From assembly GCF_000758525.1 (NCBI RefSeq), contig NZ_CP009241.1, forward strand, positions 5,642,001 to 5,706,000: a stretch of 64,000 bases of DNA, given 5' to 3'. The stretch comes from Paenibacillus sp. FSL H7-0357 (lineage in GTDB: Bacteria > Bacillota > Bacilli > Paenibacillales > Paenibacillaceae). A program made the translations under genes and the position numbers. Below the pieces are notes generated by a model. That model saw only the letters and a list, made by a program, of their open reading frames with translations, made no database searches and had not been told where the DNA came from. This document shows positions 20,741 through 35,345 of the stretch, piece by piece. Each line of letters opens with the position of its first letter. The first letter of the stretch is position 1.

Positions 20741-20790
20741 AAAACAGCGGCAGCCGTGGACGAAAAAAAGTCCTGGACTGCCGCTGTTTT
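20741..20790. terminator. Bidirectional terminator after exo-oligoxylanase and MarR genes
   Basis: AAAACAGCGGCAG at 20741-20753 is the exact complement of CTGCCGCTGTTTT at 20778-20790, with an A-rich loop and flanking A and T runs on both strands. It lies between two convergent genes. It is directly followed by the right arm of the dispersed cassette repeat. Confidence 0.85.
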
Positions 20791-20814
20791 ATTGAGCTAA
20801 CGTTTTCTGTTAGC
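20791..20814 (-). repeat. Cassette-type repeat, copy A (arm plus different hairpin)
   Basis: ATTGAGCTAACGTTTTCTGT at 20791-20810 followed by TAGC matches the arm of the repeat seen in full at 32499-32577 (ATTGAGCTAACGTTTCCCGT then T). It lies 69 bases beyond the 3' end of the leftward marR gene. The adjoining hairpin (20741-20790) has a GCGGCAG stem in place of the usual GGCAGCCGATC. Confidence 0.6.
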
Positions 20815-20882
20815 GGAACAACAAAACTCCTTGTGCTACTCGATTTTACAAATTGTTCTGGCAATGCGTTAAGAGTTCCACT

Positions 20883-21332
20883 TTAACTACGAAATCCATT
20901 AAAGTGCCTCAGCCTTTGGATGAAATCATGAAGCTCTGCATCTTTCCAGTCCGAAAGCCGTTCATAGTACACAGACTCTTTTTCCTTCAGCGCATCTAAA
21001 ACTTTTTGTTGCCCGTAATCGGTAAGAGATAATACAACTCCCCGTCCATCATTAGCCGACGTTTCTCGTTTTACATATCCCAAAGCTTGAAGTTGTTTGA
21101 CGAGGCGACTGACCGAACTTCGATCCATTGCTGTTGATTCAGCTAAAGCGGCGGCATTAGTGGCGCCATAGGAATACAGCCAGCGAACAAGATGGAAGGC
21201 AGCAGGCTGTATGGAGGAATCGAATTTAGCAGCGGCTTTTACATTTAATGCATGTGCAGAACTAATGAGAGCATTAAGCTGTTCGCCCAATTCAATCTCA
21301 AGTCTATCCCTAGGTACGTTTATCTCGTTCAT
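20883..21332 (-). CDS. MarR-family transcriptional repressor
   Basis: A 149-residue winged-helix regulator. The DNA-binding part contains AALAESTAMDRSSVSRLVKQ and the wing LGYVKRETSANDGRGVVLSL with the conserved D-x-R pattern. It is divergent from the short-chain dehydrogenase at 21484 with two palindromic operators between them, so it most likely represses both genes and releases them on binding a small, probably toxic, ligand. Confidence 0.88.
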   Translation of the reverse strand: MNEINVPRDRLEIELGEQLNALISSAHALNVKAAAKFDSSIQPAAFHLVRWLYSYGATNAAALAESTAMDRSSVSRLVKQLQALGYVKRETSANDGRGVVLSLTDYGQQKVLDALKEKESVYYERLSDWKDAELHDFIQRLRHFNGFRS

Positions 21333-21372
21333 TCTTATTCACCTTTCTTTAGGTCTAAATCAAGCCTTCAAA

Positions 21373-21420
21373 TAGTTGACATATATCAACTAAATCAATA
21401 TAGTGGATATATGTCAACTA
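21373..21420. promoter_or_regulatory. Two MarR operator palindromes
   Basis: TAGTTGACATATATCAACTA (21373-21392) and TAGTGGATATATGTCAACTA (21401-21420) are 20-bp dyads spaced 28 bp centre to centre. The first has perfect 7-bp arms. They lie between the divergent marR and dehydrogenase genes and overlap both putative promoters. Confidence 0.85.
21376..21404 (+). promoter_or_regulatory. Promoter of the dehydrogenase gene, embedded in the operators
   Basis: TTGACA (21376-21381) and TATAGT (21399-21404) are 17 bases apart. The -35 box lies in the left operator and the -10 box runs into the right one, so repressor binding would block polymerase. On the minus strand TTGACA (complement of 21412-21417) and TTTAGT are also 17 bases apart, giving a mirror-image promoter for marR. 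Confidence 0.75.
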
Positions 21421-21483
21421 ATTAATAGGCAGGTTATAGTGATTATCCACTCTTAAAGTGTATCATAGGAAGGAGAAATGACG

Positions 21484-22356
21484 ATGGTTAATAAAGAAAA
21501 TGTTGTCATTACTGGTGCTACCAGTGGACTTGGGCAGCTTGTCGCGCTCGAATTAGGAAAACGCGGATTTGACCTTATTTTGACTGCCCGGAGTAAAGAA
21601 CGCGCTGAAATCACGAGAGAACGCATTAAGGAGCAGGCACCTTCAGCGAATATTGATTTCTTTTATGGAGACTTTTCGTCAATTAAGGATGTTTCACGGG
21701 TTGGGAGTGAAATAGCTGCCGAATATCCTAAAATCGATGTGCTGTTGAACAATGTGGGGATTCATGCTTTTAAGCCTCGCATCACCCCCGAGGGTCTTCC
21801 TGAGATGATTACCGTCAATTATTTCGCTCCCTGGATTTTAACACAGATTCTAAAACCTTCCCTGCAAAACTCGAGCCATGCCAGAGTTGTCAATGTTGCC
21901 TCTGAAGCTTCACGCCGTCACGGTATATTGAAGCTACCAGAGGATTTAACAGATACAACTCCCTTTACCGCTCGCGGCTCATCCCCTGTCTATGGAAAAA
22001 CCAAATTATTAAATATTATGTTTTCGGCTGAACTTGCGCGGAGGTGGTCAGGAACGGGTATTAGCGTAAATGCACTGAATCCTGGATTTAATGTTACCGG
22101 ACTCGGACGAGAACTTTGGTTCGCCCCCGTACTCGAACGATTGTTGAAAGCCCTGCACCTCGGAGATCCGCGAAGAGGAACCGATATTATTACCCGATTA
22201 ATTGTTGATCCGGAATATCTAATTAAGACGGGTGGATACTTTAATGTCGGAACAGGACAATCCATTGAGCCAGTCTCTCCCGGAGGAGATGATGCAATGC
22301 AGCGCAGGTTGTGGGAAAGCACAGAAAAATTATTGAGAGAAAAGGGGTTTCTGTAG
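21484..22356 (+). CDS. Short-chain dehydrogenase/reductase (SDR)
   Basis: A 290-residue SDR. The cofactor motif TGATSGLG is near the N-terminus, NNVGIH follows strand 4, and the catalytic Ser/Tyr/Lys are in VASEASRR and SPVYGKTKLL. AAGGAG is eight bases before the ATG at 21484 but only two bases from the ATG at 21478, so the later start is preferred. Regulated by the divergent MarR protein; a role in reducing a reactive carbonyl is likely but not shown by the sequence. Confidence 0.88.
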   Translation: MVNKENVVITGATSGLGQLVALELGKRGFDLILTARSKERAEITRERIKEQAPSANIDFFYGDFSSIKDVSRVGSEIAAEYPKIDVLLNNVGIHAFKPRITPEGLPEMITVNYFAPWILTQILKPSLQNSSHARVVNVASEASRRHGILKLPEDLTDTTPFTARGSSPVYGKTKLLNIMFSAELARRWSGTGISVNALNPGFNVTGLGRELWFAPVLERLLKALHLGDPRRGTDIITRLIVDPEYLIKTGGYFNVGTGQSIEPVSPGGDDAMQRRLWESTEKLLREKGFL

Positions 22357-22430
22357 GCAATTCAACAAAGACAGCCGATCGTACTGACTGGCTGTCTACA
22401 TATCGTGTTTGAACTATCGTGTCCCGCTAT
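22351..22430 (-). repeat. Cassette-type repeat, copy B (degenerate, complete)
   Basis: Contains the GACAGCCGATC / GACTGGCTGTC hairpin (22370-22397) and, on the right, an arm reading TCGTGTCCCGCTA that corresponds to ACGTTTCCCGTTA of the consensus. On the minus strand the stop codon of the 22427-22723 gene lies in the first bases of the repeat, as in copy G. Confidence 0.55.
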
Positions 22431-22723
22431 TTTGATAATCTACGGAGAAATTTAATCCACTTGGGTTCGTATGCTTCGCTAATTGGAATCCCTGTGTAAT
22501 ATCTATTATAAGGGTCCATTTCCCATATCTTTAAGAGCCCCTCGGGAACTTCATACTTAAATATGGGAGAGCTAGGGTTTGCCCTATAATAAAATTCATT
22601 ACATGCAACACAGTACAAAATCTGCGATTCACCGGAGGAATATGCATAAATACTAAGCTCAGTGCGACAGGCTTCGCATCGACGTATTCGATTGCGGTTT
22701 AGCCAATCAATAAAAAACTTCAA
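22427..22723 (-). CDS. Hypothetical protein with CxxC zinc-ribbon pairs
   Basis: A 98-residue protein, counted from a TTG at 22723 that has GGAG eight bases upstream; an earlier TTG at 22759 lacks a ribosome binding site. Two cysteine pairs (RRCEACRTEL and ILYCVACNEFYY) would form a zinc ribbon; the rest is aromatic-rich. Not recognised. It is a stand-alone leftward gene enclosed by cassette-type repeats on both sides. Confidence 0.6.
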   Translation of the reverse strand: MKFFIDWLNRNRIRRCEACRTELSIYAYSSGESQILYCVACNEFYYRANPSSPIFKYEVPEGLLKIWEMDPYNRYYTGIPISEAYEPKWIKFLRRLSK

Positions 22724-22760
22724 AGTATCATCTCCTGCCGTAAAATAAGGAATATCCAAC

Positions 22761-22786
22761 GCATACTAGTATCCCGTTAGATTAGC
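22761..22786 (-). repeat. Cassette-type repeat, copy I (one arm)
   Basis: GCATACTAGTATCCCGTTAG at 22761-22780 keeps the TCCCGTTAG end of the repeat arm and lies 57 bases beyond the 3' end of the leftward gene at 22843. No hairpin is left. Confidence 0.4.
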
Positions 22787-22842
22787 CCTAACTTTTCCAT
22801 AATCGAGTTTATTAAATCTGTTTTGGCATGGGAATACGTAAC

Positions 22843-23232
22843 TTAATGCTGAATGTGTCCTGGTTTAAGCCATAACACGTCATATCCCATATTACTGAGT
22901 ATTTCCAGCCCATCATTAAACTCAATTCTGTTTGATCCATTCCACCCATTTTCCAAACCATATAAAACAAACTGCTTAACTATTCCTGGGTAATGTAAAT
23001 TAAAACCTTCAATATCACCCGAGGTTATTTTCTTTAAGTGAACACCAACTAACAGAGGGCTTCCCGAAATCGGGTCATCCCATGTACAAAAGTGGAAGGA
23101 ACATGTTATGTTCTTCAGTTCCTTTAATGATATAGAAAGAGTGATTTCGCATGCACCTTGGTGGTACTTTTGGTTAATAACATAAACGTATTTTTTATCT
23201 CGAACATTGATTTCCCTTGTGCTTTTCTTCAT
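22843..23232 (-). CDS. Hypothetical protein
   Basis: A 129-residue soluble protein beginning MKKSTREINVRDKKYVYVIN, rich in beta-type residues, with no signal peptide, membrane segment or recognised motif. It starts with ATG and stands alone on the minus strand between partial repeats at 22761-22786 and around 23275. Integron-type and phage-type accessory genes often look like this; no function can be proposed. Confidence 0.5.
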   Translation of the reverse strand: MKKSTREINVRDKKYVYVINQKYHQGACEITLSISLKELKNITCSFHFCTWDDPISGSPLLVGVHLKKITSGDIEGFNLHYPGIVKQFVLYGLENGWNGSNRIEFNDGLEILSNMGYDVLWLKPGHIQH

Positions 23233-23362
23233 ATTATCAGCACCTATTTGAAATTTGCAGTCGTTGGACGTCCTCAGTTAGCTTCATAATCGTGTATCAA
23301 TACGCTGCATTTTCTTGACAAGCAGCTATCCCGAACAGATATGGTTTTTAAATATTATCCAT

Positions 23363-23605
23363 TCATAAATCCAAAACTTCGGTGTGCCAAAGAAAACGGA
23401 TATTTAAAATGTGACCGGCAAGAAGAAGGCAGAACACGGAGATGACGAGAAACATCAGCACGAATGCGGACAGAGTGAGCAGAATTGTTTTGCTTGGCAT
23501 GTAGTATGGCAGCGGGCTTATCTGCAACACATCGGCTCCGATCATCATGAATAGCTTGGCGAACAGCATGCCTTCGCCGAAGAGCGATTGGAACTTACTG
23601 TGTTT
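23363..23605 (-). pseudogene. C-terminal remnant of an FtsX/BceB-type ABC permease
   Basis: The frame, open from 23605, reads SLFGEGMLFAKLFMMIGADV and continues with one more hydrophobic span and a charged end. This resembles the SLFSKLF helix found in the BceB/FtsX permease family. An in-frame TAG lies just upstream and no ATPase or remaining permease is nearby, so this is a fragment. Confidence 0.5.
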
Positions 23606-23780
23606 CTATAGTTTGAATAGGCTGGATTAGGTTCCGTTGGAATCTATTATAGTCCTCCAATACCGCAAGATCGAATTTCAAACTTGTAAGGTAGATGTAA
23701 GGCAGATCGATAGCTCAGGCCAGCCTGGCAGGATAAGATTGGAACAAATGAAAAAAGAATTTTTAAAAAGGAGAATCGAG

Positions 23781-25283
23781 ATGAGGCTGTTTGAACTGTT
23801 GCTTTTTTTGTCAAACATCGGCTTATTTGCATTAACAATCCTATTAAAAAAAGGAAGGCGTAGAATTCCAGTATTCGTTGCAAGCGGGATCGCCACACTT
23901 CTACTGGTCATTCATTGGACGGTGGAAGGATACAGAGTTCAGCTATTCCCCCCATATTGCATAACGATCATTTTTTTAGCCATTTCAGGTTATAGCTATT
24001 TTAAAAAAACCGGCCAAAAAAAAATCCCACGATTCATGTTGGGTTCAGCTTATACCGCTATAGCGATAATGCTGGTCGTAACAGCGGGTCTCATGTATGC
24101 TTTTCCTGTATATAAACTACCTGAACCGACAGGCGAATTTAAGGTAGGAACGCAAACTTTTCATTTCGTGGATACAAATAGGGAAGAGATTTTCGACGAA
24201 GCCAGAGATGGTAAGAGAGAATTGATGGTTCAGGTATGGTATCCGGCTCAAGCTGGCAATGGCAAGTACGCTCCCTTTATTCCCGATACCCAGATTTTAC
24301 GTTATATGTCCGCGAACTATGGCCTTCCCGGGTTTACTTTTCAACACCTGAAGTACGTATCCAGTCATGCTTATTCGGGGGCCGAAGTTTCTTCGGCACA
24401 GACTTCATACCCGCTGATCCTTGCGAATCCCGGCTTCGGCTCTTCCAGGTTCCTCCACACGTCGCAAGCCGAAAATCTCGCGAGTCACGGATATATCGTG
24501 GCAGTGATCGACCACACCTACAATACATTTGCAACTGAGTTTCCGGACGGTCGAATCACGACCAGCACAACCAACGACTTATTCTCGCCCGACCATGATT
24601 ACCGGACGGAAAGCGGAAATCGCGACAAGTTGGGAAAAGTTTTAACCGGCGATGTGGCGTTTGCGCTGGACCAATTCGAACTCATCCAATCGGGGCAGAT
24701 TCCAAGTCATCTAAAAGGGAGGATTGATCTCGGTCATGTCGGGGTGTTCGGTCATTCCATCGGCGGAGCGACGGCCTATGACGCTTCTTACGATCCGCGA
24801 ATCGCGGTTGGAATAGACTTTGATGGAGGGCTTTATCGACTGCGTGACAGAGAGGGTCTGCGAAAGCCGTTTTTGTTCATCAACTCGGAAAGCGAATTCG
24901 AAAAATTAAAAATGGTGATGGATAACCGGGTCTACACGGATGCAGAGCTTAACCGTATGGGCTCAACAAGAGAGTGGGAGGATCAAGTAACGGAAGATAA
25001 AAAGTTGGAGCTTGAACGGAGGCGCGAAACGGTCAACGAAGGGGGACAAGTCCTCTATATCGACAATACGGAGCATTTGAATTTTGCCGACGTACAGTTC
25101 ATTACTCCGATTTTCAAAATGCTGGGCGCTACAGGAAAGATTGCGCCCGAAAGAGCGAACTCCGTTATCAATACCTATATGCTGGATTTCTTCGATATGT
25201 ATCTGAAAAATCAAAGCGGAATCTTAATGAAAGGACCGGATAGCCGCTTTCCGGAGGTGAAGTTCGTAACCTCGCTATTATAA
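23781..25283 (+). CDS. Membrane-anchored alpha/beta hydrolase, PAF acetylhydrolase-like
   Basis: A 500-residue protein from the ATG at 23781 (AAAGGAG upstream); a longer frame to 23637 has no ribosome binding site. Three to four N-terminal membrane helices (within residues 3-107) precede a hydrolase domain of the plasma PAF-acetylhydrolase family. The nucleophile elbow is GVFGHSIGGA (S326), with oxyanion-region LILANPGFGSSR and a C-terminal histidine in TEHLNFAD. Such proteins hydrolyse short-chain esters; the substrate is unknown. Monocistronic. Confidence 0.82.
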   Translation: MRLFELLLFLSNIGLFALTILLKKGRRRIPVFVASGIATLLLVIHWTVEGYRVQLFPPYCITIIFLAISGYSYFKKTGQKKIPRFMLGSAYTAIAIMLVVTAGLMYAFPVYKLPEPTGEFKVGTQTFHFVDTNREEIFDEARDGKRELMVQVWYPAQAGNGKYAPFIPDTQILRYMSANYGLPGFTFQHLKYVSSHAYSGAEVSSAQTSYPLILANPGFGSSRFLHTSQAENLASHGYIVAVIDHTYNTFATEFPDGRITTSTTNDLFSPDHDYRTESGNRDKLGKVLTGDVAFALDQFELIQSGQIPSHLKGRIDLGHVGVFGHSIGGATAYDASYDPRIAVGIDFDGGLYRLRDREGLRKPFLFINSESEFEKLKMVMDNRVYTDAELNRMGSTREWEDQVTEDKKLELERRRETVNEGGQVLYIDNTEHLNFADVQFITPIFKMLGATGKIAPERANSVINTYMLDFFDMYLKNQSGILMKGPDSRFPEVKFVTSLL

Positions 25284-25420
25284 TCACGGAACAGGCTATC
25301 GATTTTGATATACTCCCCTTCAATTAGACAGGTTTAATAAATAAACCGCTATTTGAACGAACACAACTCTCAGATTGGGTGAAGAAGGGGAAGCGAAAGC
25401 TATGAGCAAGGGGCGGTCTA

Positions 25421-25828
25421 TCAATTATCAGGAACGAATAGACATTGTTCTTTACTGTCTTGCCCCTCCATCCATTTATAAGATTCTATCTTTTCATCAA
25501 TCATCTTCAGGTTGTTCTTCAGTTCATTAATTTGAACAAGAACGTTTTTTTGATGGGTTTCCAACAGCTCTCGTCTTGCACTTATTGTAGCCTCTCCTTG
25601 ACTTCGCAGATCAGAAAAACGCTTCATATCACTGACTTTCATTCCTGTTACCCGCAATCGGAGTAAAAAATGGATCCACGAGATATCAGTCTCTGAATAC
25701 TGGCGATACCCACTTGTATCTCGATGGATCCCGTAAAGCAATCCGATTTTCTCGTAATAGCGCAATGTGTGAACAGTAAGCCCTGTCATTTCAGAGTTTT
25801 GTTGAATTGTAAAAAAATTAGGTTCCAT
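25421..25828 (-). CDS. MerR-family transcriptional regulator (AdhR/NmlR-like)
   Basis: A 135-residue MerR protein: helix-turn-helix MTGLTVHTLRYYEKIGLL at the N-terminus, then a long dimerisation helix with MKVSDMKRF. There is a single C-terminal-region cysteine (QCLFV) and no metal-binding motif, which fits members that sense organic electrophiles. Divergent from the carboxymuconolactone decarboxylase-like gene, with a 19-bp-spacer promoter between them. Confidence 0.88.
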   Translation of the reverse strand: MEPNFFTIQQNSEMTGLTVHTLRYYEKIGLLYGIHRDTSGYRQYSETDISWIHFLLRLRVTGMKVSDMKRFSDLRSQGEATISARRELLETHQKNVLVQINELKNNLKMIDEKIESYKWMEGQDSKEQCLFVPDN

Positions 25829-25859
25829 AAATATTATTATAGCACATCAAAAAAAGCCA

Positions 25860-25890
25860 TTGCTTTAGAGTGCACTCTAAAGTGTAACAT
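25860..25890 (+). promoter_or_regulatory. MerR-type promoter with 19-bp spacer and palindromic operator
   Basis: TTGCTT (25860-25865) and TAACAT (25885-25890) are 19 bases apart, the hallmark of MerR-activated promoters. The spacer region holds the perfect 20-bp palindrome CTTTAGAGTGCACTCTAAAG (25863-25882). Confidence 0.85.
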
Positions 25891-25922
25891 TTAATTCAAG
25901 TTACACAGAGGAGGAATAATAT

Positions 25923-26416: not shown

Positions 26417-26486
26417 ACACTCATCTCCAACGATTTTTTTGTCATTGAATTATTAATACGAAAAGTATGCTAAACTTAGGATCACC

Positions 26487-26540: not shown

Positions 26541-27287
26541 CTAACATTTCCTACAAACGCTAATGATAGATGAAGATGACGGAGAGAACGGCGTCTTATC
26601 CCAATCAGCATATTGATGTTCGACGCGAAAGCCGTGACGGGTTAATAAAGAATGCAGCGTATCCTGATCCGTGAACCGACAAGCAATTCGGGAAATCGTC
26701 TGCTTATCCCCCCAATCACGCATCGTGACCCAATGCATGACATGCTGTCTAGCATCGTAACATTGTGTGCCTGATACCTTGACGTTATTCCCATCCTTAT
26801 CTATGAATGATCCCCATTCTGTCTCCTCTTGATCGGATAAATCCGTTCCCTCCGGATTACGGGTCTCGAATGCAAAGATTCCATGGAGTTGTAAATGTTT
26901 GTGAACGGTCGTGAGCAAATCAATTTGATCTTGATCACTTATGAATGCCTGAAATGCATTACCAGTCAAATAAATCATTGAAAATCGCTTGTCCGATTCG
27001 AAGGTACGGGCATCACCTTCCATAAAAGTAACAGTCAACCCTTCCGCCTTCAACCGCGCATATGCGAGCATCGCTGAAGAGATATCTACACCGGTCATCG
27101 TTATGCCGGCTTTCGACAGGGGTATCGTTGTTAAGCCTGTACCACAAGCAAGCTCTAACACTTCCCCAGGACTCGATCTAGCAAGCTCAAGATAGAACTG
27201 ATATTTTTCAATTTCACCGTCAAATTCAAGATCGTAATTTACCGGATCTTGATATTCTTCAAGATTGCTATGTTCAATCAACGCCAT
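26541..27287 (-). CDS. Class I SAM-dependent methyltransferase
   Basis: About 248 residues. The SAM-binding motif is VLELACGTGLTTIPLSKAG, followed by GVDISSAML and a motif II region MIYLTGNAFQAF. The substrate cannot be told. The ATG at 27287 is very close to AGGGGG; a TTG two codons later (27281) has ideal spacing and may be the true start. Its stop (AAATGTTAG) matches the position of stops within cassette repeats. It follows the LURP-one gene by 35 bases. Confidence 0.85.
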   Translation of the reverse strand: MALIEHSNLEEYQDPVNYDLEFDGEIEKYQFYLELARSSPGEVLELACGTGLTTIPLSKAGITMTGVDISSAMLAYARLKAEGLTVTFMEGDARTFESDKRFSMIYLTGNAFQAFISDQDQIDLLTTVHKHLQLHGIFAFETRNPEGTDLSDQEETEWGSFIDKDGNNVKVSGTQCYDARQHVMHWVTMRDWGDKQTISRIACRFTDQDTLHSLLTRHGFRVEHQYADWDKTPFSPSSSSIISVCRKC

Positions 27288-27322
27288 TCCCCCTTTCATA
27301 TTGTAAGACCTAGACAAAATAG

Positions 27323-27811
27323 TCACTGATGAGAAGCAGCAGCTTGGTCAGCCTTCACACAATCAATTGCGACAACGAACGCAATCATGATTGCCTCCAT
27401 CTCCTCATTCAATATTTGAATCTTGTAGCTATCTCCCCAAGTGAACCACTCCTTGTTCACTTCACCTATGACTACTCCATGCTGTAAGACCTGAAAATCC
27501 ATGTCCCACCAATTACCATGTACCTCTATGTCAGCCGAATCAATCGTATAGCGTGCTTTAAAGAAAGAAAACTCCTTCTTAATCGTTAACACCTCTCGAC
27601 CATTAACCTCAACAAAAAACTTCGGTAAAAAACTGAACACCTTTTTCGTAATAAGTGCGACTTCATCTCTTGTTGTGTTCATAATGGAGAACGTCTTTGG
27701 AATTTGCATAAAACTGCCCTCTACATAATAAACATCCTCCTCCTGCTGATTCTTTACCGTAAATTTTCCACTTAGACTGAATACTTTCTGCTTTATATAA
27801 AGCTGCTTCAT
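27323..27811 (-). CDS. LURP-one-related (YxjI-like) protein
   Basis: A 162-residue protein of the LURP-one/DUF567 family: MKQLYIKQKVFSLSGKFTVK at the start and repeated beta strands such as FSFLPKFFVEV and FSFFKARYTI, forming the Tubby-like barrel. The ATG at 27811 has GGAGG six bases upstream. Bacterial members have no established function. It leads into the methyltransferase gene. Confidence 0.8.
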   Translation of the reverse strand: MKQLYIKQKVFSLSGKFTVKNQQEEDVYYVEGSFMQIPKTFSIMNTTRDEVALITKKVFSFLPKFFVEVNGREVLTIKKEFSFFKARYTIDSADIEVHGNWWDMDFQVLQHGVVIGEVNKEWFTWGDSYKIQILNEEMEAIMIAFVVAIDCVKADQAAASHQ

Positions 27812-28053: not shown

Positions 28054-28698
28054 CTATCCAAGATATGTTAACAATGTTTTTAATGGATTTCCAATTTGCA
28101 CATCCATTTCACGCTCAACTTTTTCAGCAGTTTCAACCATGGATAATTGAGCGACAGAAATGGTCTTGTTGGGGTCAGAGACAAGCAAACCCTTTATATA
28201 GTTTGATACTTCATTCACATACTGCTCCTTCTTTCCTTGCATTATTAGCTCGAAGGTATTCTCAATGACTTGAACATCAATATTAATTGGTTTTGCGTGT
28301 GTGGTTGCAAATTCATTAAGCCGTTTCATGGTTCCTTCGACTGTTGCTGGATTAGTAAATAGTAGCATCTGTGGCTTTGTTATATTGCAAACGTGATGGA
28401 TAAATGGCTCATCAATTTTTATTATTGGGACTGATGTCTTAAGTTGTTCTTCGTTGAGAATAGCAATGTAATTAGTACATGTAATTAGAATTGCATCAAC
28501 ATTCGTATTTGCTATCCATTCAATCTGCTCATTCACTTTGTTTTGGGCTTTTGTTAAATCGAAATTTTGATCTGACGCAATTCTGCTCATTAATCCAGGG
28601 TCTACAAAGTGTACTAATTCCAAATCATTTGAAGCAATAGCTTTTTGAATATACTCAATATTTGAGTAGTGGGCATGCAAACAACCAATCTTCTTCAT
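28054..28698 (-). CDS. Aspartate/glutamate racemase-family protein
   Basis: A 214-residue protein with MKKIGCLHAHYSNIEYIQKA at the start and ILITCTNYIAIL in the middle, the latter matching the cysteine-containing loop of the Asp/Glu/hydantoin racemase superfamily. The C-terminal cysteine loop of true racemases (usually xTxCxx) is not obvious, so the activity is uncertain. Single leftward gene with repeats on both sides. Confidence 0.65.
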   Translation of the reverse strand: MKKIGCLHAHYSNIEYIQKAIASNDLELVHFVDPGLMSRIASDQNFDLTKAQNKVNEQIEWIANTNVDAILITCTNYIAILNEEQLKTSVPIIKIDEPFIHHVCNITKPQMLLFTNPATVEGTMKRLNEFATTHAKPINIDVQVIENTFELIMQGKKEQYVNEVSNYIKGLLVSDPNKTISVAQLSMVETAEKVEREMDVQIGNPLKTLLTYLG

Positions 28699-28851: not shown

Positions 28852-29445
28852 TTAAGTGGAGAATTCATCAATAATTTCTACTACTTCGATTTCCCCATTA
28901 ATCAGCAGCTCAGGAAGTTCGTTATTTACATTGCCTTTCCAATATTCTCTGGCTTGTTCGATTTTTCGGGAGAAAGCAATTCCATCTTCCTTTGGTAAAA
29001 GATTACCGTCTCCTTCAAAGATATTCCCAGTAACCCGAAGTTTAACGATCTGCAAAACATTTCGATGATAAGAATCAAAAAGTTCTTTCCATTTCAGAGC
29101 GTCTTCATAGCTCTTAGCAGCGTATAAGCAAGACAACCGTGAAGGATATTCAGGATATTCTTGCAATCTGACCATTTCAACTATTACTTCTCTAGTAGCT
29201 CTGATTGTTTGTTCCGCATATCTAATAACTACATCTGCATTCTCTTTATCCAACTTAAAGCCGTCATTTGTATAATGACGGTGTAATATTTGAATAAAGT
29301 CTTCACCTTTGGAATTCATCTGTTCCTTCTCAAAAAAGAAGTGATATAAAGTGTTTTTTTGGTTTTTGTCAAAGCTAATTATCTGCCCAATGTCCATTTT
29401 TCTTCTCGTGACAATGTGATAAACATACAATTTGCTTCTTTCCAT
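28852..29445 (-). CDS. DUF2441 domain-containing protein
   Basis: A 197-residue protein from ATG 29445 (GGGGGG upstream). Motifs such as [20 protein letters not shown] at the start and [20 protein letters not shown] in the middle match DUF2441, a family related to ADP-ribosyltransferase-like folds with no established role. The family is frequent in accessory gene sets. Stand-alone leftward gene with partial repeats on both sides. Confidence 0.75.
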
Positions 29446-29504
29446 GGACTGCCCCCCATTAATCATTGTTAGCATAAGTAAATTCGGAATTTACCAGCAT
29501 TATC

Positions 29505-29520
29505 CTGCCTGTTAGCTTAA
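29505..29520 (-). repeat. Cassette-type repeat, copy E (outer arm)
   Basis: CTGCCTGTTAGCTTAA differs from the consensus arm CTGCCCGTTAGTTTAA at two positions. It lies 48 bases beyond the 3' end of the cold-shock gene. Confidence 0.5.
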
Positions 29521-29567
29521 TTATGGGTCCCGAAAGTCCATACATTTAGGAAATACGTCTCGATTCT

Positions 29568-29822
29568 TTAGTCCTCTAAAATTTGCACATTCTTAGCTGT
29601 CCAACGCTGAGAATCAACCATACTCGGGAACTCGAATAGGTCGAACGCAACTTTTTGACCCTCTTTAAGAAACCGAAAGCCGTTCGGTAGCCTAATAGGG
29701 TCTGGTCGTATTTCGCTAAAGTGAACAAACACATGGTTATCGTCCTGCCCGTCTAGCATTATCCGTCCGTAACCTTTATCTTCTTTGAACCATTTGACAA
29801 TACCACATCTTCTTTCCGCCAT
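29568..29822 (-). CDS. Cold-shock-domain protein
   Basis: An 84-residue protein with the RNA-binding motifs of the cold-shock fold: [17 protein letters not shown] (RNP1-like) and HVFVHFSEI (RNP2-like). Compared with canonical 66-residue CspA/CspB proteins it has an insertion after RNP2 and weaker RNP1. GAGGAGG lies upstream of the ATG at 29822. Likely binds single-stranded nucleic acid; accessory rather than housekeeping. Confidence 0.85.
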
Positions 29823-29872
29823 TTAAGCACCTCCTCTGTCACTTTATTAAGTATCATAAAGATTGAGTTTTT

Positions 29873-29914
29873 TGCCCAAGCGGTGAATAAAGCAACCACT
29901 TTTTCATTAACGTT
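29873..29914 (-). repeat. Cassette-type repeat, copy F (hairpin lost)
   Basis: Begins TTGCCCAAGCGGTGAATAAA and ends TTAACGTTTCCTGTTAG, so both arms are recognisable while the central GGCAGCC stem is missing. It lies about 60 bases beyond the 3' end of the small membrane-protein gene. Confidence 0.45.
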
Positions 29915-29974
29915 TCCTGTTAGTGCTTCGCTGTACTATACATAATGTGTTCCCATCGCATTGAGTGAGTTACC

Positions 29975-30223
29975 TCATTTTATTTTTTTCGGGAACCCAT
30001 ATACGAAAAGTATCATACCGAGGAACGTAAGGATTGGCACAAAGATATTATCGAAGAAGCCTGTAATATGAGTTTCAGGCAGGGCATCGAACATATTCGC
30101 TTCGTATAACACTACAATTTCTTGACTACGAGCTATCAAAGAGCCCACACGTTCAATAGCATAGATTACTCCAGCGGAAATTAGAAAGGATGCACCTAGT
30201 TTTCTGTATAAGTCGTTGCCCAT
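29975..30223 (-). CDS. Small membrane protein, unknown
   Basis: An 82-residue protein with two predicted membrane helices (about residues 10-28 and 58-77) and a positively charged end (PKKIK). No family is recognised. It starts at ATG 30223 and is a single leftward gene between partial cassette repeats. Confidence 0.5.
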   Translation of the reverse strand: MGNDLYRKLGASFLISAGVIYAIERVGSLIARSQEIVVLYEANMFDALPETHITGFFDNIFVPILTFLGMILFVYGFPKKIK

Positions 30224-30349
30224 GAAATATTTGTTGCCTCCTCTATTTTTTGTTGATTACTTGTCCCATCATTCCACTTTACCACATTGTTCCATTTACT
30301 GAAAATTAGAATAATGCTAGTGATTTAACGCTATAGAGCTACAAATTGT

Positions 30350-30365
30350 AACTATCCTGCGATGA
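30350..30365 (-). repeat. Possible cassette-type repeat, copy L (outer arm)
   Basis: On the minus strand GCAGGATAGTT follows the MFS stop by a few bases; the same string after GGGCAG occurs with small changes in copies C, D and E. Only the outermost part is left, so this is a weak copy. Confidence 0.3.
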
Positions 30366-30371
30366 GGGACT

Positions 30372-31616
30372 TCACTGCTTACTAGGGAATCCGTGTCTCT
30401 TCGCACTCCAAGCGATAATCAATGCAACAAGTAGCAGGATCAATAGCGCCACCGGAAAAGACTGAACTCCAACATGCTCTAGCAACGCGCCACCAACAAT
30501 TCCTCCGCCAGCGATGGCCAAATTCCATACTGTGGTATTTATCGGCATTGCGATATCCACGCCTTCTTCACCGCTTGCATTAGCTTGGGCGGTTTGCAGC
30601 AACGTGGCAGCACCGCCGAAGGTCAGTCCCCATAACACAACTGCTGTATAGACAATCGGTGCTGATGTGCCGCCCACCCATAGGGCAACGGACACAAGCA
30701 CAAAACCAATTAGGCTGATCAATACAAGAGGGCGTAGCATACGGTCAATTAACAGTCCGACAATCCAGATGGAGATAAGTGCGGCTATTCCGAAGACCAG
30801 CAAGACAAGATCGACACGCTCTGAGAGTCCGATTGGCTCGAGAAAGGGTGAGATATACGTATATAAGATATTGTGTGCCAACATCCAGGTAAACACCACT
30901 ATAAGAATTGAACGTAAGCCGGGCATAACAAACACTTGCCTAAAGGTCATTCTTTGATTTGTAGTTTGCCCTGAATAATCCGGAACTTTCCACAGCACCC
31001 AACCAATTAAAATAAGAGTGAGAAGAGACATGAGTCCAAAAACGGCACGCCAACCAATCAGGTCACCGAGCATGGTGCCCAATGGTACTCCGAACGTAAG
31101 AGCGATTGGAGTTCCCACCATCGCAACTGCCAAAGCACGTCCTTTCAAGATCTCTGGCACCATCCGCCGTGCGTAACCGGCGATCATCCCCCATGCGGCG
31201 CCGGCAGCCATACCGGCGAAGAAACGAGCGATGAGTGTCAACACATAACTGGCCGACAGAGCGGTGACGGTGTTAAATACCAAGAATACCGCTATAATGG
31301 CGAGCAACAGCGGACGGCGCCTAAACCCGCTGGTAAACATGGCGAACGGAATTGCGGCCACTATGGAACCAATCGCATAAGAAGTTACCAGTTGACCAGC
31401 CAACCCCTTAGAAATATTTAGCCCTTCTCCTATTAGTGGGAGTAGCCCCGCCGGAATGGTTTCAGTAAGAATGCAGATGAATCCTGTCATAGCAAGCGCC
31501 AGCAGAGCAAGCCAGGGAAGCTTAACAGAAGCGTCGGCAGATTGAAGTTTACCCGCGGATGATGAACGTTGGGACAATTTTATTTCCTCCTTAAGATGCA
31601 TTTGTGGATCAATCAT
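30372..31616 (-). CDS. MFS transporter, DHA1 (drug/arabinose efflux) family
   Basis: A 414-residue transporter with twelve predicted membrane helices. ILTETIPAGLLPLIGEGL in helix 1 and RFFAGMAAGAAWGMIAGYAR in the first half are typical of the YdhP/AraJ/PbuE branch of DHA1. It is divergent from a TetR regulator 80 bases away, the usual setting of a drug-efflux pump. Substrate not predictable. Confidence 0.88.
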   Translation of the reverse strand: MIDPQMHLKEEIKLSQRSSSAGKLQSADASVKLPWLALLALAMTGFICILTETIPAGLLPLIGEGLNISKGLAGQLVTSYAIGSIVAAIPFAMFTSGFRRRPLLLAIIAVFLVFNTVTALSASYVLTLIARFFAGMAAGAAWGMIAGYARRMVPEILKGRALAVAMVGTPIALTFGVPLGTMLGDLIGWRAVFGLMSLLTLILIGWVLWKVPDYSGQTTNQRMTFRQVFVMPGLRSILIVVFTWMLAHNILYTYISPFLEPIGLSERVDLVLLVFGIAALISIWIVGLLIDRMLRPLVLISLIGFVLVSVALWVGGTSAPIVYTAVVLWGLTFGGAATLLQTAQANASGEEGVDIAMPINTTVWNLAIAGGGIVGGALLEHVGVQSFPVALLILLLVALIIAWSAKRHGFPSKQ

Positions 31617-31643
31617 TCCATATATTAATCATAACACATTCAC

Positions 31644-31672
31644 TTGTCAATTATTTATGGATCGAATAGTAT
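31644..31672 (+). promoter_or_regulatory. Putative promoter of the TetR-family gene
   Basis: TTGTCA (31644-31649) and TAGTAT (31667-31672) are 17 bases apart and end 24 bases before the start codon. AATTAATTAAGGAGG follows. The short divergent region must also hold the efflux-gene promoter and operator. Confidence 0.6.
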
Positions 31673-31696
31673 AGAATTAATTAAGGAGGTTATCTT

Positions 31697-32326
31697 ATGC
31701 CACGAACGGGACGCCCCCGATCATTTAATCGAGACGAAGCGGTTGTTGCCGCAATGATACTGTTCTGGGATTATGGCTTCGAATCGACTTCACTTGCTCA
31801 GTTGCGCGCAGCAATGGGAGACATATCTGCGGCGAGTTTTTATGCAGCATTTGAATCCAAAGAAATGCTGTTCCGCGAAGTAGTGAAACATTATATCTCA
31901 ACTTATGGACAGGTTTCAGAAAGTTTCAGGGATACAAGCATAACATCGAAGGAAGCTATTGAGCAGGGATTAAGGCGATCGGCACAAATGCAAACAGAGA
32001 AGTCCCACCCATTAGGCTGTCTTCTAGTTTTGTCTGATGTATCCTGTTCTCCCGAGCATAAACACATACGAGAGATGCTCTCCAAGGAGCGTGAGAAGGT
32101 CCGCAGTTGGCTACACGATTGTATAGACAAGGCCGTAGCAAATGGTGAGTTGCCTGATTCCACGGATGTTTCCATGCTAGTCACCTTATTTGACACCTTT
32201 CTTCGAGGAATCTCGACACAAGCCCGGGACAATGTTCCATACGAGTCAATTGACTCTGCCATTAATCAACTAATGAGCGTATGGGAAATATTATCCGTTA
32301 AGCCAAGTGCTCAGGAGACTGTTTGA
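31697..32326 (+). CDS. TetR/AcrR-family transcriptional regulator
   Basis: A 209-residue TetR protein. The N-terminal helix-turn-helix reads LAQLRAAMGDISAASFYAAF, and the C-terminal ligand domain has the HPLGCLLVLSDV motif of the YxaF/LmrA-like TetR_C group. AAGGAGG precedes the ATG. It most likely represses the divergent efflux transporter. Confidence 0.87.
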   Translation: MPRTGRPRSFNRDEAVVAAMILFWDYGFESTSLAQLRAAMGDISAASFYAAFESKEMLFREVVKHYISTYGQVSESFRDTSITSKEAIEQGLRRSAQMQTEKSHPLGCLLVLSDVSCSPEHKHIREMLSKEREKVRSWLHDCIDKAVANGELPDSTDVSMLVTLFDTFLRGISTQARDNVPYESIDSAINQLMSVWEILSVKPSAQETV

Positions 32327-32430
32327 GCAGCGGCCGCGTCATTTCTTGTTACCTATCTCAGTGACACTCAATGAATTGGTTGATATCATACAGTCTTCAG
32401 TAGTCCATGTGCATCTCATATTGTGCAAAA

Positions 32431-32475
32431 CAAAGACTAACAGCCTCCTGATAAATGGGTTGCTGTTAGTCTTTG
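32431..32475. terminator. Rho-independent terminator
   Basis: AAAGACTAACAGC (32432-32444) is the exact complement of GCTGTTAGTCTTT (32462-32474), with A residues upstream and T residues downstream. It follows the TetR gene and would act in both directions. Confidence 0.7.
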
Positions 32476-32498
32476 TAACTGCCTATTATTAAACTAAT

Positions 32499-32577
32499 CT
32501 GCCAGTTAGTTTAACAAAAGCAGCCGATCACGTTGATCAGCTGCCTTCTTGTTATTATTGAGCTAACGTTTCCCGTT
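32499..32577 (-). repeat. Cassette-type repeat, copy G (reference copy)
   Basis: Left arm CTGCCAGTTAGTTTAACAAA, hairpin GCAGCCGATCA / TGATCAGCTGC (32520-32543), right arm ATTGAGCTAACGTTTCCCGT then T. The two arms are imperfect complements (GTTAGTTTAACAA against TTGTTATTATTGAGCTAAC), giving a long bulged hairpin. The TAG stop of the leftward Ntn-hydrolase gene lies inside the right arm, so the repeat is joined directly to the gene end. Confidence 0.75.
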
Positions 32578-33585
32578 GCTCGGAAAGCTATCGGGAAATG
32601 CAGCGAAAAAGTTAATCATTTCATCGGTTATATTCCATCCGAACGCACTAGTTAGAGCGGGATCCCTGAAAAATGCATTTGCAACGGTATAGTTCAATTT
32701 CGCATCGTAGCACACATAACAAATATCTCCACTACTACCTGCAGGCTGCTGAAGGTTCAACGCCATTGTCGTTGCGTGCGCGGAGAAATCCACCTCACTA
32801 AGCCGAAACGTTTTCAATTCAGGATAAAGGCTCGACGTAAAATGAAGTTGCATCTGTTGCAAATCATATATCAGACTGAAAGCAGTATCTTTCCGCCGAA
32901 CCGCTTGTAAAGTTTCCAGCATGAATTTGAGTCGGTCATTCTTGAAAGCAGGGAACCCACCAGTAAGATGAGCCGCCCCTTCCACAAAACGTTCCATGGA
33001 GTTGTATTCGTAATCGCTGTACGTGCCCCTCCAGCACTCATCTACGTCTTCCAAGTCTCTTATCGCCTCGGAATAGGGTGTGTTCGCCATAATTGGAAAC
33101 GGCAAACTGTCGCTTTTGTATACACGCATGGTTCCGTCTATAAATTCGAATATTGCGCAATCACCAGTGCGGTCAGCTATCATATAATGCAACCGTGACA
33201 TCGGCTCTACAATTCGGACCAGTGAAGCCGCTAGTTCTGCTTCTTTCACCGTGGCACAAGTATCAAGTAGCAATTGGATCCACTGTAGCTCACCGATCGC
33301 AGGTAATTCCTCGTCATTCGAATAAGTAGATTGCCATAGTGTCGTCTGTTCCACTACGAGACCTGCTTCGTTGAAACCGCAGTTAGGCATTTCTTTGCCA
33401 ACTTGCGAGACGGTCAGACTTCCGTATCTAGAAATCCATTTTGCTGGCTGATTTGGCGGTTGCACTAGTGCGCTTTTGGCAACACCACGCTTATTCGTGA
33501 ATATGTACACTCCTGCGTAAGGAATATCCTGATTCTTTGCAAGCAACCGGGTTCCATCCCCGCCGAAGTAAATTGCAGTACTCAT
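32563..33585 (-). CDS. Linear amide C-N hydrolase-like (Ntn-hydrolase fold)
   Basis: A 340-residue protein related to penicillin V acylase/choloylglycine hydrolases: LLAKNQDIPY near the start, NCGFNEAGLVVEQTTLW, then MIADRTGDCAIFEF. In these enzymes residue 2, a cysteine, is the nucleophile after Met removal; here residue 2 is serine (MSTAIYF) and no cysteine is near, so either serine is used or the protein is inactive. The start overlaps the stop of the HTH gene (ATGA), so the two are translationally coupled. Its last codons run into a cassette repeat. Confidence 0.75.
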   Translation of the reverse strand: MSTAIYFGGDGTRLLAKNQDIPYAGVYIFTNKRGVAKSALVQPPNQPAKWISRYGSLTVSQVGKEMPNCGFNEAGLVVEQTTLWQSTYSNDEELPAIGELQWIQLLLDTCATVKEAELAASLVRIVEPMSRLHYMIADRTGDCAIFEFIDGTMRVYKSDSLPFPIMANTPYSEAIRDLEDVDECWRGTYSDYEYNSMERFVEGAAHLTGGFPAFKNDRLKFMLETLQAVRRKDTAFSLIYDLQQMQLHFTSSLYPELKTFRLSEVDFSAHATTMALNLQQPAGSSGDICYVCYDAKLNYTVANAFFRDPALTSAFGWNITDEMINFFAAFPDSFPSNGKR

Positions 33586-34097
33586 GGTCGGTTCCTTCCC
33601 ATTTCCAGCTTCATTTCGAGTTCTTCAACCTGTCCCGCATCAAGCTCAGCTAGTACGATATCAAATATCCAGTCGATTCGTTCGTCATTCTGCTGAAGTG
33701 CGGCAGCAATTCTTTCTAGGCGATGCTGGTCAGCCTTCTCCTTAAGAAGCTTCTGTTTTTTTTCTCTATAAGGTTCAATATCTTCTTCATCAGCCCTTTC
33801 CTCTACAAGCTGTGCCACCTTTTGCTCCACTAATAGGATATGGAGTTCGATTTTCCCCAAAGGCGTCATTGGTTTTGCGAAATTGCTGTTATCTACGAAT
33901 ATAGCTCCATCCACACCAAAATAATCGGCGAGCGCCTGCAGCCGTTCTTGTGGAATCGGCCGGCGTTTTTTAATCCAATCGGAAAACTGCTGCGGTGTAA
34001 TCTGAAGCTGACGGCCAATGCCTGAATAGGATTGTTCGTTAATCATGACCATATATTCCAACACTGTTTTGGATTGGACCTGTTCATGCTTATTCAT
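33582..34097 (-). CDS. XRE-type helix-turn-helix regulator with coiled-coil tail
   Basis: A 171-residue protein. The N-terminal HTH includes YSGIGRQLQITPQQFSDWIK; the rest (about residues 80-165) is strongly charged and probably a coiled coil used for oligomerisation. Four copies of a 15-bp palindrome directly upstream are its likely binding sites. It overlaps the Ntn-hydrolase gene by four bases, so it probably controls that gene together with itself. Confidence 0.8.
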   Translation of the reverse strand: MNKHEQVQSKTVLEYMVMINEQSYSGIGRQLQITPQQFSDWIKKRRPIPQERLQALADYFGVDGAIFVDNSNFAKPMTPLGKIELHILLVEQKVAQLVEERADEEDIEPYREKKQKLLKEKADQHRLERIAAALQQNDERIDWIFDIVLAELDAGQVEELEMKLEMGRNRP

Positions 34098-34110
34098 GCA
34101 ATCACTCCTC

Positions 34111-34203
34111 GACGTAATTTATGTCTATACAATATCTCAAGACATATTTTATGTCAATAGAAACGACATAATTTATGTCAATAGAAACGACATAATTTAT
34201 GTC
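34111..34203. promoter_or_regulatory. Four-fold operator array upstream of the XRE regulator
   Basis: Palindromes at 34111-34125 (GACGTAATTTATGTC), 34141-34155 (GACATATTTTATGTC), 34165-34179 and 34189-34203 (both GACATAATTTATGTC). Spacings are 30, 24 and 24 bases. On the minus strand TTGACA made from the second site lies 17 bases from TATTGT, a plausible promoter covered by the operators. Confidence 0.8.
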
Positions 34204-34325
34204 ATTTGGATGACAAGAATATCCTTTCCTATCTTATTTTATCAGCTCGGGTAGTATCTAATGGGTTGAAAAGCCAAGAATATTTAGAAAAATCTCTAAA
34301 TACCACTACTCAAACAAAAGCACTA

Positions 34326-34376
34326 ATGACTTCTGACGAAGCAGCACAATACATGGGAGTTTCATTAGAAGATTAG
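34326..34376 (+). pseudogene. Fragment of an excisionase-like HTH gene
   Basis: Seventeen codons reading MTSDEAAQYMGVSLED resemble the first helices of HTH_17/excisionase proteins, then stop. No ribosome binding site is clear. The 330-base gap 34204-34534 otherwise holds a terminator-like hairpin and an IS1595-like end. Confidence 0.3.
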
Positions 34377-34423
34377 CCATACAATATGCTTAATAAATAA
34401 TGGCTTAAGAGAGCTCCCAGCAT

Positions 34424-34457
34424 AAATAACCGCATTTTTAGACAATGCGGTTATTTT
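34424..34457. terminator. Terminator-like hairpin
   Basis: AAATAACCGCATT and AATGCGGTTATTTT pair around a short loop, with A and T runs on the sides. It lies between the excisionase-like fragment and the leftward methyltransferase gene. Confidence 0.6.
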
Positions 34458-34469
34458 CATGTCCAGAAT

Positions 34470-34492
34470 CAACATTGTACTTAAACATAGCC
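34470..34492. repeat. Solo end resembling the IS1595 end at 38157-38176
   Basis: ATCAACA at 34468-34474 followed by TTAAACATAGCC (34481-34492) resembles ATCAACA then TTTAACATAGCC at 38165-38176. Both are followed by an A run. It may be a scar of another element of the same family. Confidence 0.3.
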
Positions 34493-34534
34493 AAAAATTT
34501 AAATAACCGTGATTCTCTATAATCGAAGCTCGAT

Positions 34535-35290
34535 CTATACTTCTCCCCAAAATATCTCAGTTTCATAATCAAATAGAACGATACCATCCTGATTATTCCT
34601 ATCAAATAGATTTCGCAGTTCCGTCATCATCGGATTGTAATTCGGATGCCCGGGTACAGGGCTGTAGGAAGATGATTGCAACCGGCCTCTCAAGCCCTCG
34701 AAATCGAACTCCTGACTCATTCTGAATCGCACTTCATGCATCGTACCTTCCTTGAAAAAAGAGAGAAGCATCGTCTGAGAAATATTTTTATGATTGACTT
34801 TTTCGTAGTCTGTTCCGTATGTATGAAGCAGTTGATCGTACTCTTCACGAAATGAAGTACCGTTTGTAAGACGGGAATTCCAGATTAGTATTACTCTCCC
34901 GCCCGGCTGTAGAATTCTACGGAACTCGGTTTGCGTTGCTAAGCGATCAAACCAGTGAAACGCTTGTGCGCAGACAATAAACTCAACCGACTGATCAGGT
35001 AATCCAGTAGATTCTGCAGAACCTGATATAGTCTGAAAGTTCGGATTGCTTTCTAACATTTGCTCGGCGGCTACCCGCATTGCCTGATTCGGCTCGACCG
35101 CGGTCACATAGCTTCCGCGTTCCAGAAGCAGCTTTGAAAAGATTCCTGTACCTGAACCGATGTCTGCTATTTTACTGTTTGAACGCAAACCGACGAAGTC
35201 GTACAAATAATCAACAGCCTCTTTCGGATAGCTCGGGCGGTACTTCAAATATGAATCGACCCGGTTCGAAAATCTTTCTCTATTGTTCAT
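34535..35290 (-). CDS. Class I SAM-dependent methyltransferase
   Basis: A 251-residue methyltransferase with SKIADIGSGTGIFSKLLLER as SAM-binding motif I, VTAVEPNQAMR as the acidic loop, and VEFIVCAQAFHWFDRLATQ typical of the UbiE/BioC-like type 11 group. Substrate not predictable. It is the last gene of the accessory stretch before the IS110-type element. Confidence 0.88.
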   Translation of the reverse strand: MNNRERFSNRVDSYLKYRPSYPKEAVDYLYDFVGLRSNSKIADIGSGTGIFSKLLLERGSYVTAVEPNQAMRVAAEQMLESNPNFQTISGSAESTGLPDQSVEFIVCAQAFHWFDRLATQTEFRRILQPGGRVILIWNSRLTNGTSFREEYDQLLHTYGTDYEKVNHKNISQTMLLSFFKEGTMHEVRFRMSQEFDFEGLRGRLQSSSYSPVPGHPNYNPMMTELRNLFDRNNQDGIVLFDYETEIFWGEV

Positions 35291-35322
35291 CTCTTGTCAC
35301 TCTCCCAGTATTTCATTAGTTT

Positions 35323-35345
35323 CATAGGCAATCGTTTCCCGTTAG
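35323..35345 (-). repeat. Cassette-type repeat, copy H (inner arm)
   Basis: ATAGGCAATCGTTTCCCGTT followed by AG keeps the CGTTTCCCGTTAG end exactly. No gene adjoins it on the right; the IS110-type element begins about 60 bases later, so the gene once attached here may have been lost. Confidence 0.45.

Follow-up and report, generated by a model that had tools for sequence, protein, structure and literature searches.

A probable worn array of an integron-like cassette system in Paenibacillus sp. FSL H7-0357

Introduction

In Paenibacillus sp. FSL H7-0357, whose genome is a single contig of 7.69 Mb (NZ_CP009241.1), a 64-kb stretch at positions 5,642,001 to 5,706,000 (hereafter the window, with positions counted from its first base) contains many copies of one short repeat beside small, unrelated genes, which raises the question "How did these genes come to be collected here?" An earlier note, made from the bases of the window alone, had suggested a decayed integron cassette array or another repeat-based system of gene capture. 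According to the available text of PMC9024848, integrons are very rare in Firmicutes, with one complete example (Limnochorda pilosa) and a few attC clusters that have no integrase; the integron layout that we used for comparison is that given in the available text of PMC8618304. We conclude, with a probability of about 85%, that the array in the window is a worn one and belongs to a cassette system similar to the integron in its workings but not in its components; the comparison of related genomes supports repeat-based gene capture.

The boxes and their distribution

Each full copy of the repeat, which had been described as one hairpin with two arms, turned out to be two near-identical boxes ~70 bp apart with a hairpin between them. 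The boxes have a common design, a left arm TTAAGCTAAC, a spacer and a right arm GATAGTTCAATA, which together form an imperfect palindrome; the usual arms are (A/G)CTAAC, with an A before it, and GATAGTT (base frequencies of 285 b1 and 272 b2 boxes). The b1 type, TTAAGCTAAC-GGGAAAC-GATAGTT, has a 7-nt spacer with A/G and A/C variants, and the b2 type, TTAAGCTAAC-GGGCAG-GATAGTT, a 6-nt spacer. In copies from 20 stretches of related genomes, b1 and b2 lie ~70 nt apart around a hairpin of variable sequence. Two inverted binding domains around a spacer of 6-8 bp are typical of tyrosine recombinase sites, as described in the accessible part of PMC4792948.

A weight-matrix scan, with matrices trained on 79 loci and the window itself, detected 10 boxes of at least 9 bits between 20.8 and 35.3 kb of the window (Table 1), relative to a mean of 0.63 and a maximum of 3 in 30 dinucleotide shuffles. 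Patterns independent of the matrices gave 7 matches against 0.30 expected (TAACGTTTCCCGTTAG, up to three mismatches), two of which (36778 and 61795) are not boxes, and 3 matches against 0.44 expected (CTGCCCGTTAGTTTAA). All ten places at which the earlier note had located the repeat hold a copy or a remnant of it, those at 22761 and 30350 being decayed or half-sites under the scan threshold, and the single orientation it reported was borne out, all ten scored boxes being on the minus strand. The copy at 35323 is indeed a box, albeit one split by an IS110-type insertion sequence (IS). That the stop codon of a leftward gene lies inside the repeat was correct for the gene 33585-32563 (box 32579), but the stop codon at the copy at 22351 is that of a rightward gene (21478-22356). 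It had also been observed that the outer bases do not match the attC core, and the box arms do deviate from its consensus, RYYYAAC/GTTRRRY.

The boxes are not confined to the window. Within two mismatches, the core occurs at 16 places in this genome, 12 of them outside the window, whereas the reversed pattern occurs at four. The exact pattern CTAACGGGN{3,4}GATAG matches 634 times across 100 genomes of the genus, its reverse 58 times; 83 of these genomes have at least one match and 17 have at least 10, and the 16-nt core with at most one mismatch is present in 53 of 61 genomes of the genus. Across the class the exact pattern was found in 70 of 398 genomes. Of the 37 genomes of the window's family 22 have it; the other 48 are among the 361 remaining genomes, in which there are no more than eight exact matches per genome and most of those listed have other spacers.

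Arrays, hairpins and cargo

In related genomes the boxes delimit arrays that run in one direction and are composed of three kinds of module: genes, hairpins of ~70 bp and a recombinase module of ~980 bp. Among 731 boxes in 79 loci and the window, neighbors less than 4 kb apart had the same orientation in 611 cases and opposite orientations in 13. After further loci had been added, neighboring stretches merged and 15 duplicate records dropped (judged by eye from lengths and positions), the extended set of 1339 boxes in 119 sequences had 1123 same and 36 opposite; the 15 duplicate loci were likewise dropped from the cargo, hairpin, module-pair and switch-point counts.

The order of modules follows a loose grammar, in which the spacer type tends to go with the module downstream: CAG before genes, and AxAC before hairpins and the recombinase gene. 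Of 285 b1 boxes, 152 have the next box at a distance of 55-76 nt, i.e., a hairpin module, while after b2 this is so (55-90 nt) in only 7 of 354, the distance being mostly the 300-2000 nt of a gene module. Hairpin modules can be tandem, 7 of 255 being followed by another b1. The box after a gene module is b1 in 392 of 588 cases and b2 in 196, in which the next gene module comes directly, although some of the 196 may hide a decayed b1. The hairpins fold better than base-composition shuffles of themselves (median z of -3.96), and they may end transcription between cassettes.

The longest open reading frame (ORF) lies in the box direction in 463 of 523 gene modules, with a median of 178 aa, and the stop codons of these 463 ORFs end at box position +3 (cTAAc) in 34 cases and at -2 in 27. 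Gene modules have a median guanine-plus-cytosine content of 0.378, versus 0.439 for all loci. A Pfam family was found at 1e-5 for 24 of 40 sampled cargo proteins (40 of 50 drawn from 305 with ORFs of at least 90 aa in the unmerged loci, one recombinase being left out), including acetyltransferases, phosphotransferases, glyoxalase, GrpB, ROK, imidazoleglycerol-phosphate dehydratase and several DUFs, and the genes of the window are similar in kind. PADLOC gave no match for 10 cargo proteins. An Rfam search of six array loci returned one group II intron, a domain (RF02003) at L071:6140-6279 in an array locus of genome G003, reminiscent of the group IIC-attC introns that occur in integrons. We also observed a stretch of ~160-200 bp that ends near a b2 box and is present in many copies of 80-94% identity (L059:14979-15182; arrays in G005, G046 and G052).

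Movement of modules and the switch point

Do the modules move as units? With the recombinase excluded and identity set at 88% or more, 45 module pairs, not all of them independent, recur at 88-99% identity with unrelated neighbors, 36 between genomes and nine within one, and one 567-bp gene module is common to four genomes. On each side the outside sequence is unrelated in all but two of the 45 pairs: one pair in G087, an internal duplication, matches on both sides, another within G087 matches upstream, and the L112/L074 pair matches downstream (0.80). In the 60 nt past the 3' box, identity exceeds 0.75 in only two of the 45 pairs (random baselines for the same length average 0.61 for hairpins and 0.53 for upstream stretches), so the hairpin does not travel with the gene.

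When mismatches are counted per position, over pairs with unrelated neighbors and with recombinase modules included, homology switches on either side of a module between +4 and +6 of CTAACGGG, that is, at the left edge of the spacer or one base into it, near CTAAC/GGG. The cold-shock module of the window (29511-29856) has a counterpart of 84% identity in a G005 array; the match stops at box position +4 in both, and the 3' box of the module is b2 in the window and b1 in G005. This is a fourth instance of a module whose downstream box is b1 at one locus and b2 at another. The other three are clean cases from 44 such cross-type pairs; 39 of the pairs were excluded, their modules ending in a ~360-385-nt element that inserts into boxes, and two of the remaining five were ambiguous.

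The earlier note had proposed comparing strains for gain or loss of single genes, and for relatives this yielded two clean whole-module cases. The recombinase adjoins the 567-bp module in G061, while a single 1175-bp module lies between the two in G012; similarly, a module that adjoins the recombinase in P. soyae is separated from it by two modules in P. castaneae. For the window itself there is no direct empty-site comparison, because G003 and G027, in the stretches fetched, share the segment from 38180 to 40.2 kb beside the array but have no array sequence. The sister species G011 and G060 have both flanks in common at 90-96% and differ in array contents, without single events being resolved.

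The recombinase

The ~980-bp array module encodes a 280-aa Xer-like tyrosine recombinase whose gene lies between two boxes, mostly b1 upstream and mostly b2 downstream, and which is found with the same boundaries at unrelated places; the module is both linked to the arrays and mobile. In an integron an attI site and a promoter platform stand beside the integrase gene, and the b1 upstream of the recombinase gene might have a special role. Its PF00589 domain scored 118.3 and 115.8 bits in two proteins (cut-off 27.1), and R138, K165, H229, R232, H255 and Y264, which we take to be the catalytic residues, are invariant in four sequences. The same two proteins fell well below the cut-off of the integron integrase model TIGR02249 (83.6 and 90.8 bits versus 265). 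In alignments with the IntI model PRK15417 the offset is +9/+10 up to residue 177 in one protein and +48 from residue 204 in the other, which is of the same length, implying that ~38 residues of IntI are missing. The best NCBIfam scores were to XerC (184-193 bits versus 335), XerD (178-190 versus 330) and XerA (182-187 versus 220), all below the cut-offs, and the best structural match of the predicted enzyme (a good prediction with 35 sequences, versus a predicted local distance difference test score of 37.5 with four) was XerA. Identity between the enzyme and the tyrosine recombinases at seven loci used for comparison does not exceed 29%. It shares its fold and catalytic residues with the simple Xer-group tyrosine recombinases, from which it differs in its scores and in the linkage of its gene to arrays.

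At E ≤ 1e-60 the family is present in 68 of 394 genomes, two of the proteins being longer ones of a second group. We note that this second group has open frames of 333-345 aa and scores ~200-214 bits with the 280-aa profile (G050:C137:50580, G040:C1:3383972, G369:C4:177805 and G141:C1:46495).

What of the genome of the window? The report that no integrase is in the window was confirmed, as none of the nine PF00589 places of this genome is inside it; a search of the genome for an IntI-type integrase gave 10 matches, none above the cut-off. No recombinase of the 280-aa family was found in this genome at E ≤ 1e-30, so that its boxes are either relics or dependent on a recombinase from outside, and the array of the window looks like a worn relic or one served in trans. 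With several boxes reduced to half-sites, "decayed" was an apt word for it.

Relatives of 47-51% identity are on plasmids of Peribacillus, Sporosarcina, Niallia, Cytobacillus and others. The Sporosarcina plasmid has nine boxes of at least 12 bits within 31 kb, on one strand, versus two in a reversed control, with spacer types of its own (GGGTGC and GGGGCAG); the recombinase gene lies between one of each and points against the boxes. The Peribacillus plasmid, with two boxes, is a weak case. On the Sporosarcina psychrophila plasmid pSP10-266k (L297), we observed a mercury reductase with its regulator, a GNAT acetyltransferase and a NUDIX protein between boxes, and an IS110 transposase adjoining a box.

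The predicted fold of the recombinase 5' leader has a stem that encloses GGGAGG before the start codon, and three of nine consensus stem pairs are kept with both sides changed in the 23 leaders (of 26) that were aligned. Because the mRNA can hide the ribosome-binding site in a hairpin, translation of the recombinase from upstream transcripts is probably damped.

Proposed mechanism

We propose that each box serves as a core site in which two inverted arms flank a spacer of 6-7 bp. The unit between boxes, be it a gene, a hairpin of ~70 bp or the gene of the recombinase, is a module that, as the boundaries, the unrelated neighbors and the cases of module insertion or loss show, can leave one place and enter another by site-specific recombination near CTAAC/GGG. 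Recombination of two directly repeated boxes would free the module as a circle, which could be reinserted at any box. The most likely enzyme for these steps is the 280-aa recombinase, because of its linkage to boxes, its intact catalytic residues and its mobility with the same boundaries.

If exchange at both edges of the spacer were required, boxes with different spacers would be barred from recombining. The three b1/b2 cases, with the cold-shock module as a fourth, and the switch near the left edge would fit a bolder reading, exchange at a single edge, in which GGGAAAC and GGGCAG boxes would still recombine and each downstream module would keep its own spacer. Whether the system is an independent counterpart of the integron in Bacilli, with a cassette-borne Xer-like enzyme and asymmetric exchange at the left spacer edge (CTAAC/GGG) only, is equally tentative, and we regard it as possible but on balance doubtful.

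Comparison with known systems and alternative explanations

Like chromosomal integrons, the arrays run in one direction, are made up of AT-rich cassettes that are small, mostly hold a single gene and move as a whole, have a tyrosine recombinase at hand and have stop codons reaching into the site. Unlike in integrons, the enzyme is Xer-like without the IntI insertion and its gene is itself a cassette within the array, the site is a short palindromic core and no attC, the hairpins are separate modules and there are two spacer types. The likeness to the dif and pdif modules of Acinetobacter plasmids lies in short sites of two arms and a 6-bp spacer that bound modules, a length that b2 has and b1, with 7 bp, does not. 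The differences are a recombinase carried in a module, spacers of both lengths, another sequence and sites that point one way; in dif modules, as described in the available part of PMC13141974, site orientation alternates between neighbors, a feature contradicted here by the 1123 same against 36 opposite. Integron-like in operation and similar to dif modules, the system nonetheless lacks tested defining features of both.

The alternatives differ mainly in which enzyme acts and in what it moves. Host Xer enzymes could exploit the boxes, as XerC/XerD do the sites of the Acinetobacter dif modules, which have no recombinase of their own, the 280-aa enzyme being a passenger, and indeed several box-rich genomes have no intact recombinase (G005 and G074 have only broken pieces and G090 has none at E ≤ 1e-30), while a box-rich G005 contig encodes a 356-aa protein that scores as XerS. 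We consider this unlikely, as the arms of the boxes do not resemble the XerC/XerD arms printed in the accessible part of PMC13141974, and the 280-aa enzyme, for all its low identity to the compared recombinases, has kept the same flanking boxes and has a ~50% identical relative among similar boxes on the Sporosarcina plasmid. A true integron, divergent or decayed, in which b1-hairpin-b2 is an attC site folded from the bottom strand and served by an integron integrase, is decidedly unlikely. The order of elements can be drawn, as we did ourselves, as R''-L''-VTS-L'-R' (VTS, variable terminal structure) with unpaired central spacers, and the single direction, small cassettes and stop codons in the site fit; such foldback pairing, however, comes free because each box is itself palindromic, and 196 of the 588 gene modules run directly into b2, decayed b1 boxes permitting. 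The candidate of a decayed integron, and with it that part of the earlier proposal, is not supported, because the enzyme is not IntI, its gene is inside the array between two boxes and the hairpin does not move with the upstream gene; the other part, gene capture, is upheld by box-bounded modules that recur with unrelated neighbors and by whole-module insertion or loss in two comparisons.

We give very little weight to the idea that b1-hairpin-b2 is the non-autonomous, MITE-like (miniature inverted-repeat transposable element) form, and b1-recombinase-b2 the autonomous form, of one element, with the genes between as bystanders. The recombinase does take the usual place of the hairpin and both modules usually begin with b1 and end before b2, but gene modules themselves recur with ends at boxes, as the 567-bp module in four genomes illustrates, and genes are joined directly at b2 where no hairpin was detected. 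Least probable of all is an ordinary family of terminator-type repeats that is kept where accessory genes end and moves by homologous recombination only. Boxes at gene 3' ends and well-folding hairpins would suit it; against it are module ends that fall no more than a few bases from the edge of the spacer, a recombinase module whose boundaries are the same at unrelated places, and one-direction arrays of unrelated AT-rich genes.

Several observations weigh against our preferred reading, a cassette system moved by the 280-aa enzyme. The switch is not perfectly sharp, because mismatches in the 5' box climb again at +7 to +9 (6, 7 and 6), and the conserved box columns leave few informative differences there. 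Clean insertion/loss comparisons number only two, and an automatic indel screen found boxes at all three points in 9 of 247 junctions and not in 238, many of the listed junctions being inside decayed recombinase genes. The racemase block of the window matches a G003 array locus over 584 bp at 95.5% and does not end at window boxes. From 112 of 285 b1 boxes it is at least 300 nt to the next detected box, and only some of these intervals are recombinase modules, the remainder being genes or lost boxes. At least four T follow the stem in 127 of 254 hairpins, versus 140 of 254 on the other strand, which gives terminators no preferred strand. Among the 100 genomes of the genus, 73 have no recombinase at E ≤ 1e-60, yet 57 of these have at least one exact box (background ~0.6 per genome), and the comparison of box counts is unadjusted for kinship. 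Finally, both the action of the recombinase on the boxes and the circular intermediate are deduced from sequence comparison.

The literature searched (titles and the beginnings of abstracts, with most subscription papers and preprints falling outside it) contained no description of this system, which apparently has not been described before. How these large genomes gain many small accessory genes would be partly explained by a cassette system that is found across Paenibacillaceae and has plasmid-borne relatives in other Bacilli, and such a system would probably escape attC-based tools. If single-edge exchange is correct, the single-edge logic of the integron would exist without the extra domain of IntI or a folded attC, and hairpin (terminator) modules would be shuffled too. 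In the available text of PMC4792948, the shift of the integrase from double-strand to cassette recombination is a puzzle and the gain of the I2 domain a chicken-and-egg paradox; the puzzle would become testable with a Xer-like cassette system that is complete, works and has no such domain.

Elements inserted into boxes and other features of the window

IS1111-attC elements insert into attC sites, and the boxes too are targets of insertion. The IS110-type element of the window has the junction TTAAGCT, element, CTAACGGGAAACG, with a repeated 2-bp CT core (also written TTAAGCT, element, CTAACGGG); its second copy in this genome is in a b2-type box, and a 76% identical relative in G057 is also in a box. 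This parallels elements that target attC (PMC11187229) and the insertion sequences that target pdif sites (PMC10132070), as far as the available parts of these papers describe them. At the same place, after TTAAGCT in both box types, inserts the ~360-385-nt element, which has no long ORF (places include L109, L110, L188, L189, L193 in G057, and L071). Its box-side end was found 26 times and the other end for 11 of these, 10 of the 11 being 340-400 nt away; it had no Rfam match in the loci searched and may be a non-autonomous relative of IS110.

Table 1. Boxes, the inserted element and genes of the array region (window coordinates)
Feature	Position	Strand	Basis and remarks
b1 box, 37.7 bits	20797..20813	-	matrix scan; hairpin 20741-20790 next; no b2 seen past hairpin
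b1 box, 29 bits	22414..22430	-	matrix scan; hairpin ~22371-22398; decayed b2 near 22356
Decayed b1-type box (CTAACGGGATACTAGTA)	22764..22780	-	seen by eye; under scan threshold
b2 box, 35.3 bits	27870..27885	-	matrix scan; 5' end of LOR-domain and methyltransferase gene stretch
b1 box, 20.8 bits	27939..27955	-	matrix scan; 5' end of 70-bp hairpin module reaching 27885
b2 box, 12.1 bits	28773..28788	-	matrix scan; 5' end of racemase-like gene module
b2 box, 29 bits	29500..29515	-	matrix scan; separates cold-shock and DUF2441 gene modules
b1 box, 17.3 bits	29907..29923	-	matrix scan; shortened stretch, decayed b2 near 29863-29880
b2 box, right half only (CAGGATAG)	30352..30359	-	seen by eye; left half gone; below threshold
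b2 box, 36.6 bits	32494..32509	-	matrix scan; 5' end of TetR and major facilitator superfamily gene stretch
b1 box, 24 bits	32563..32579	-	matrix scan; contains stop codon of gene 33585-32563
b1 box split by IS110-type element	35329..35345	-	matrix scan and inspection; left half remains at 37094-37100
IS110-type insertion in box	35346..37093	+	99.9% identical to second copy (L073) in this genome
Methyltransferase gene	26541..27326	-	
Asp/Glu racemase-like gene	28054..28698	-	Pfam; slightly under cut-off
DUF2441 gene module	28852..29475	-	
Cold-shock gene	29568..29822	-	sequence comparison
82-aa protein, no Pfam family	29975..30223	-	between half-site 30352 and box 29923
Methyltransferase gene	34535..35290	-	

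A transfer RNA was the only Rfam match in the window. At 34111-34212, upstream of a helix-turn-helix gene (33582-34097), a 24-nt repeat (GACATAATTTATGTCAATAGAAAC) occurs four times, and these copies are perhaps operators.

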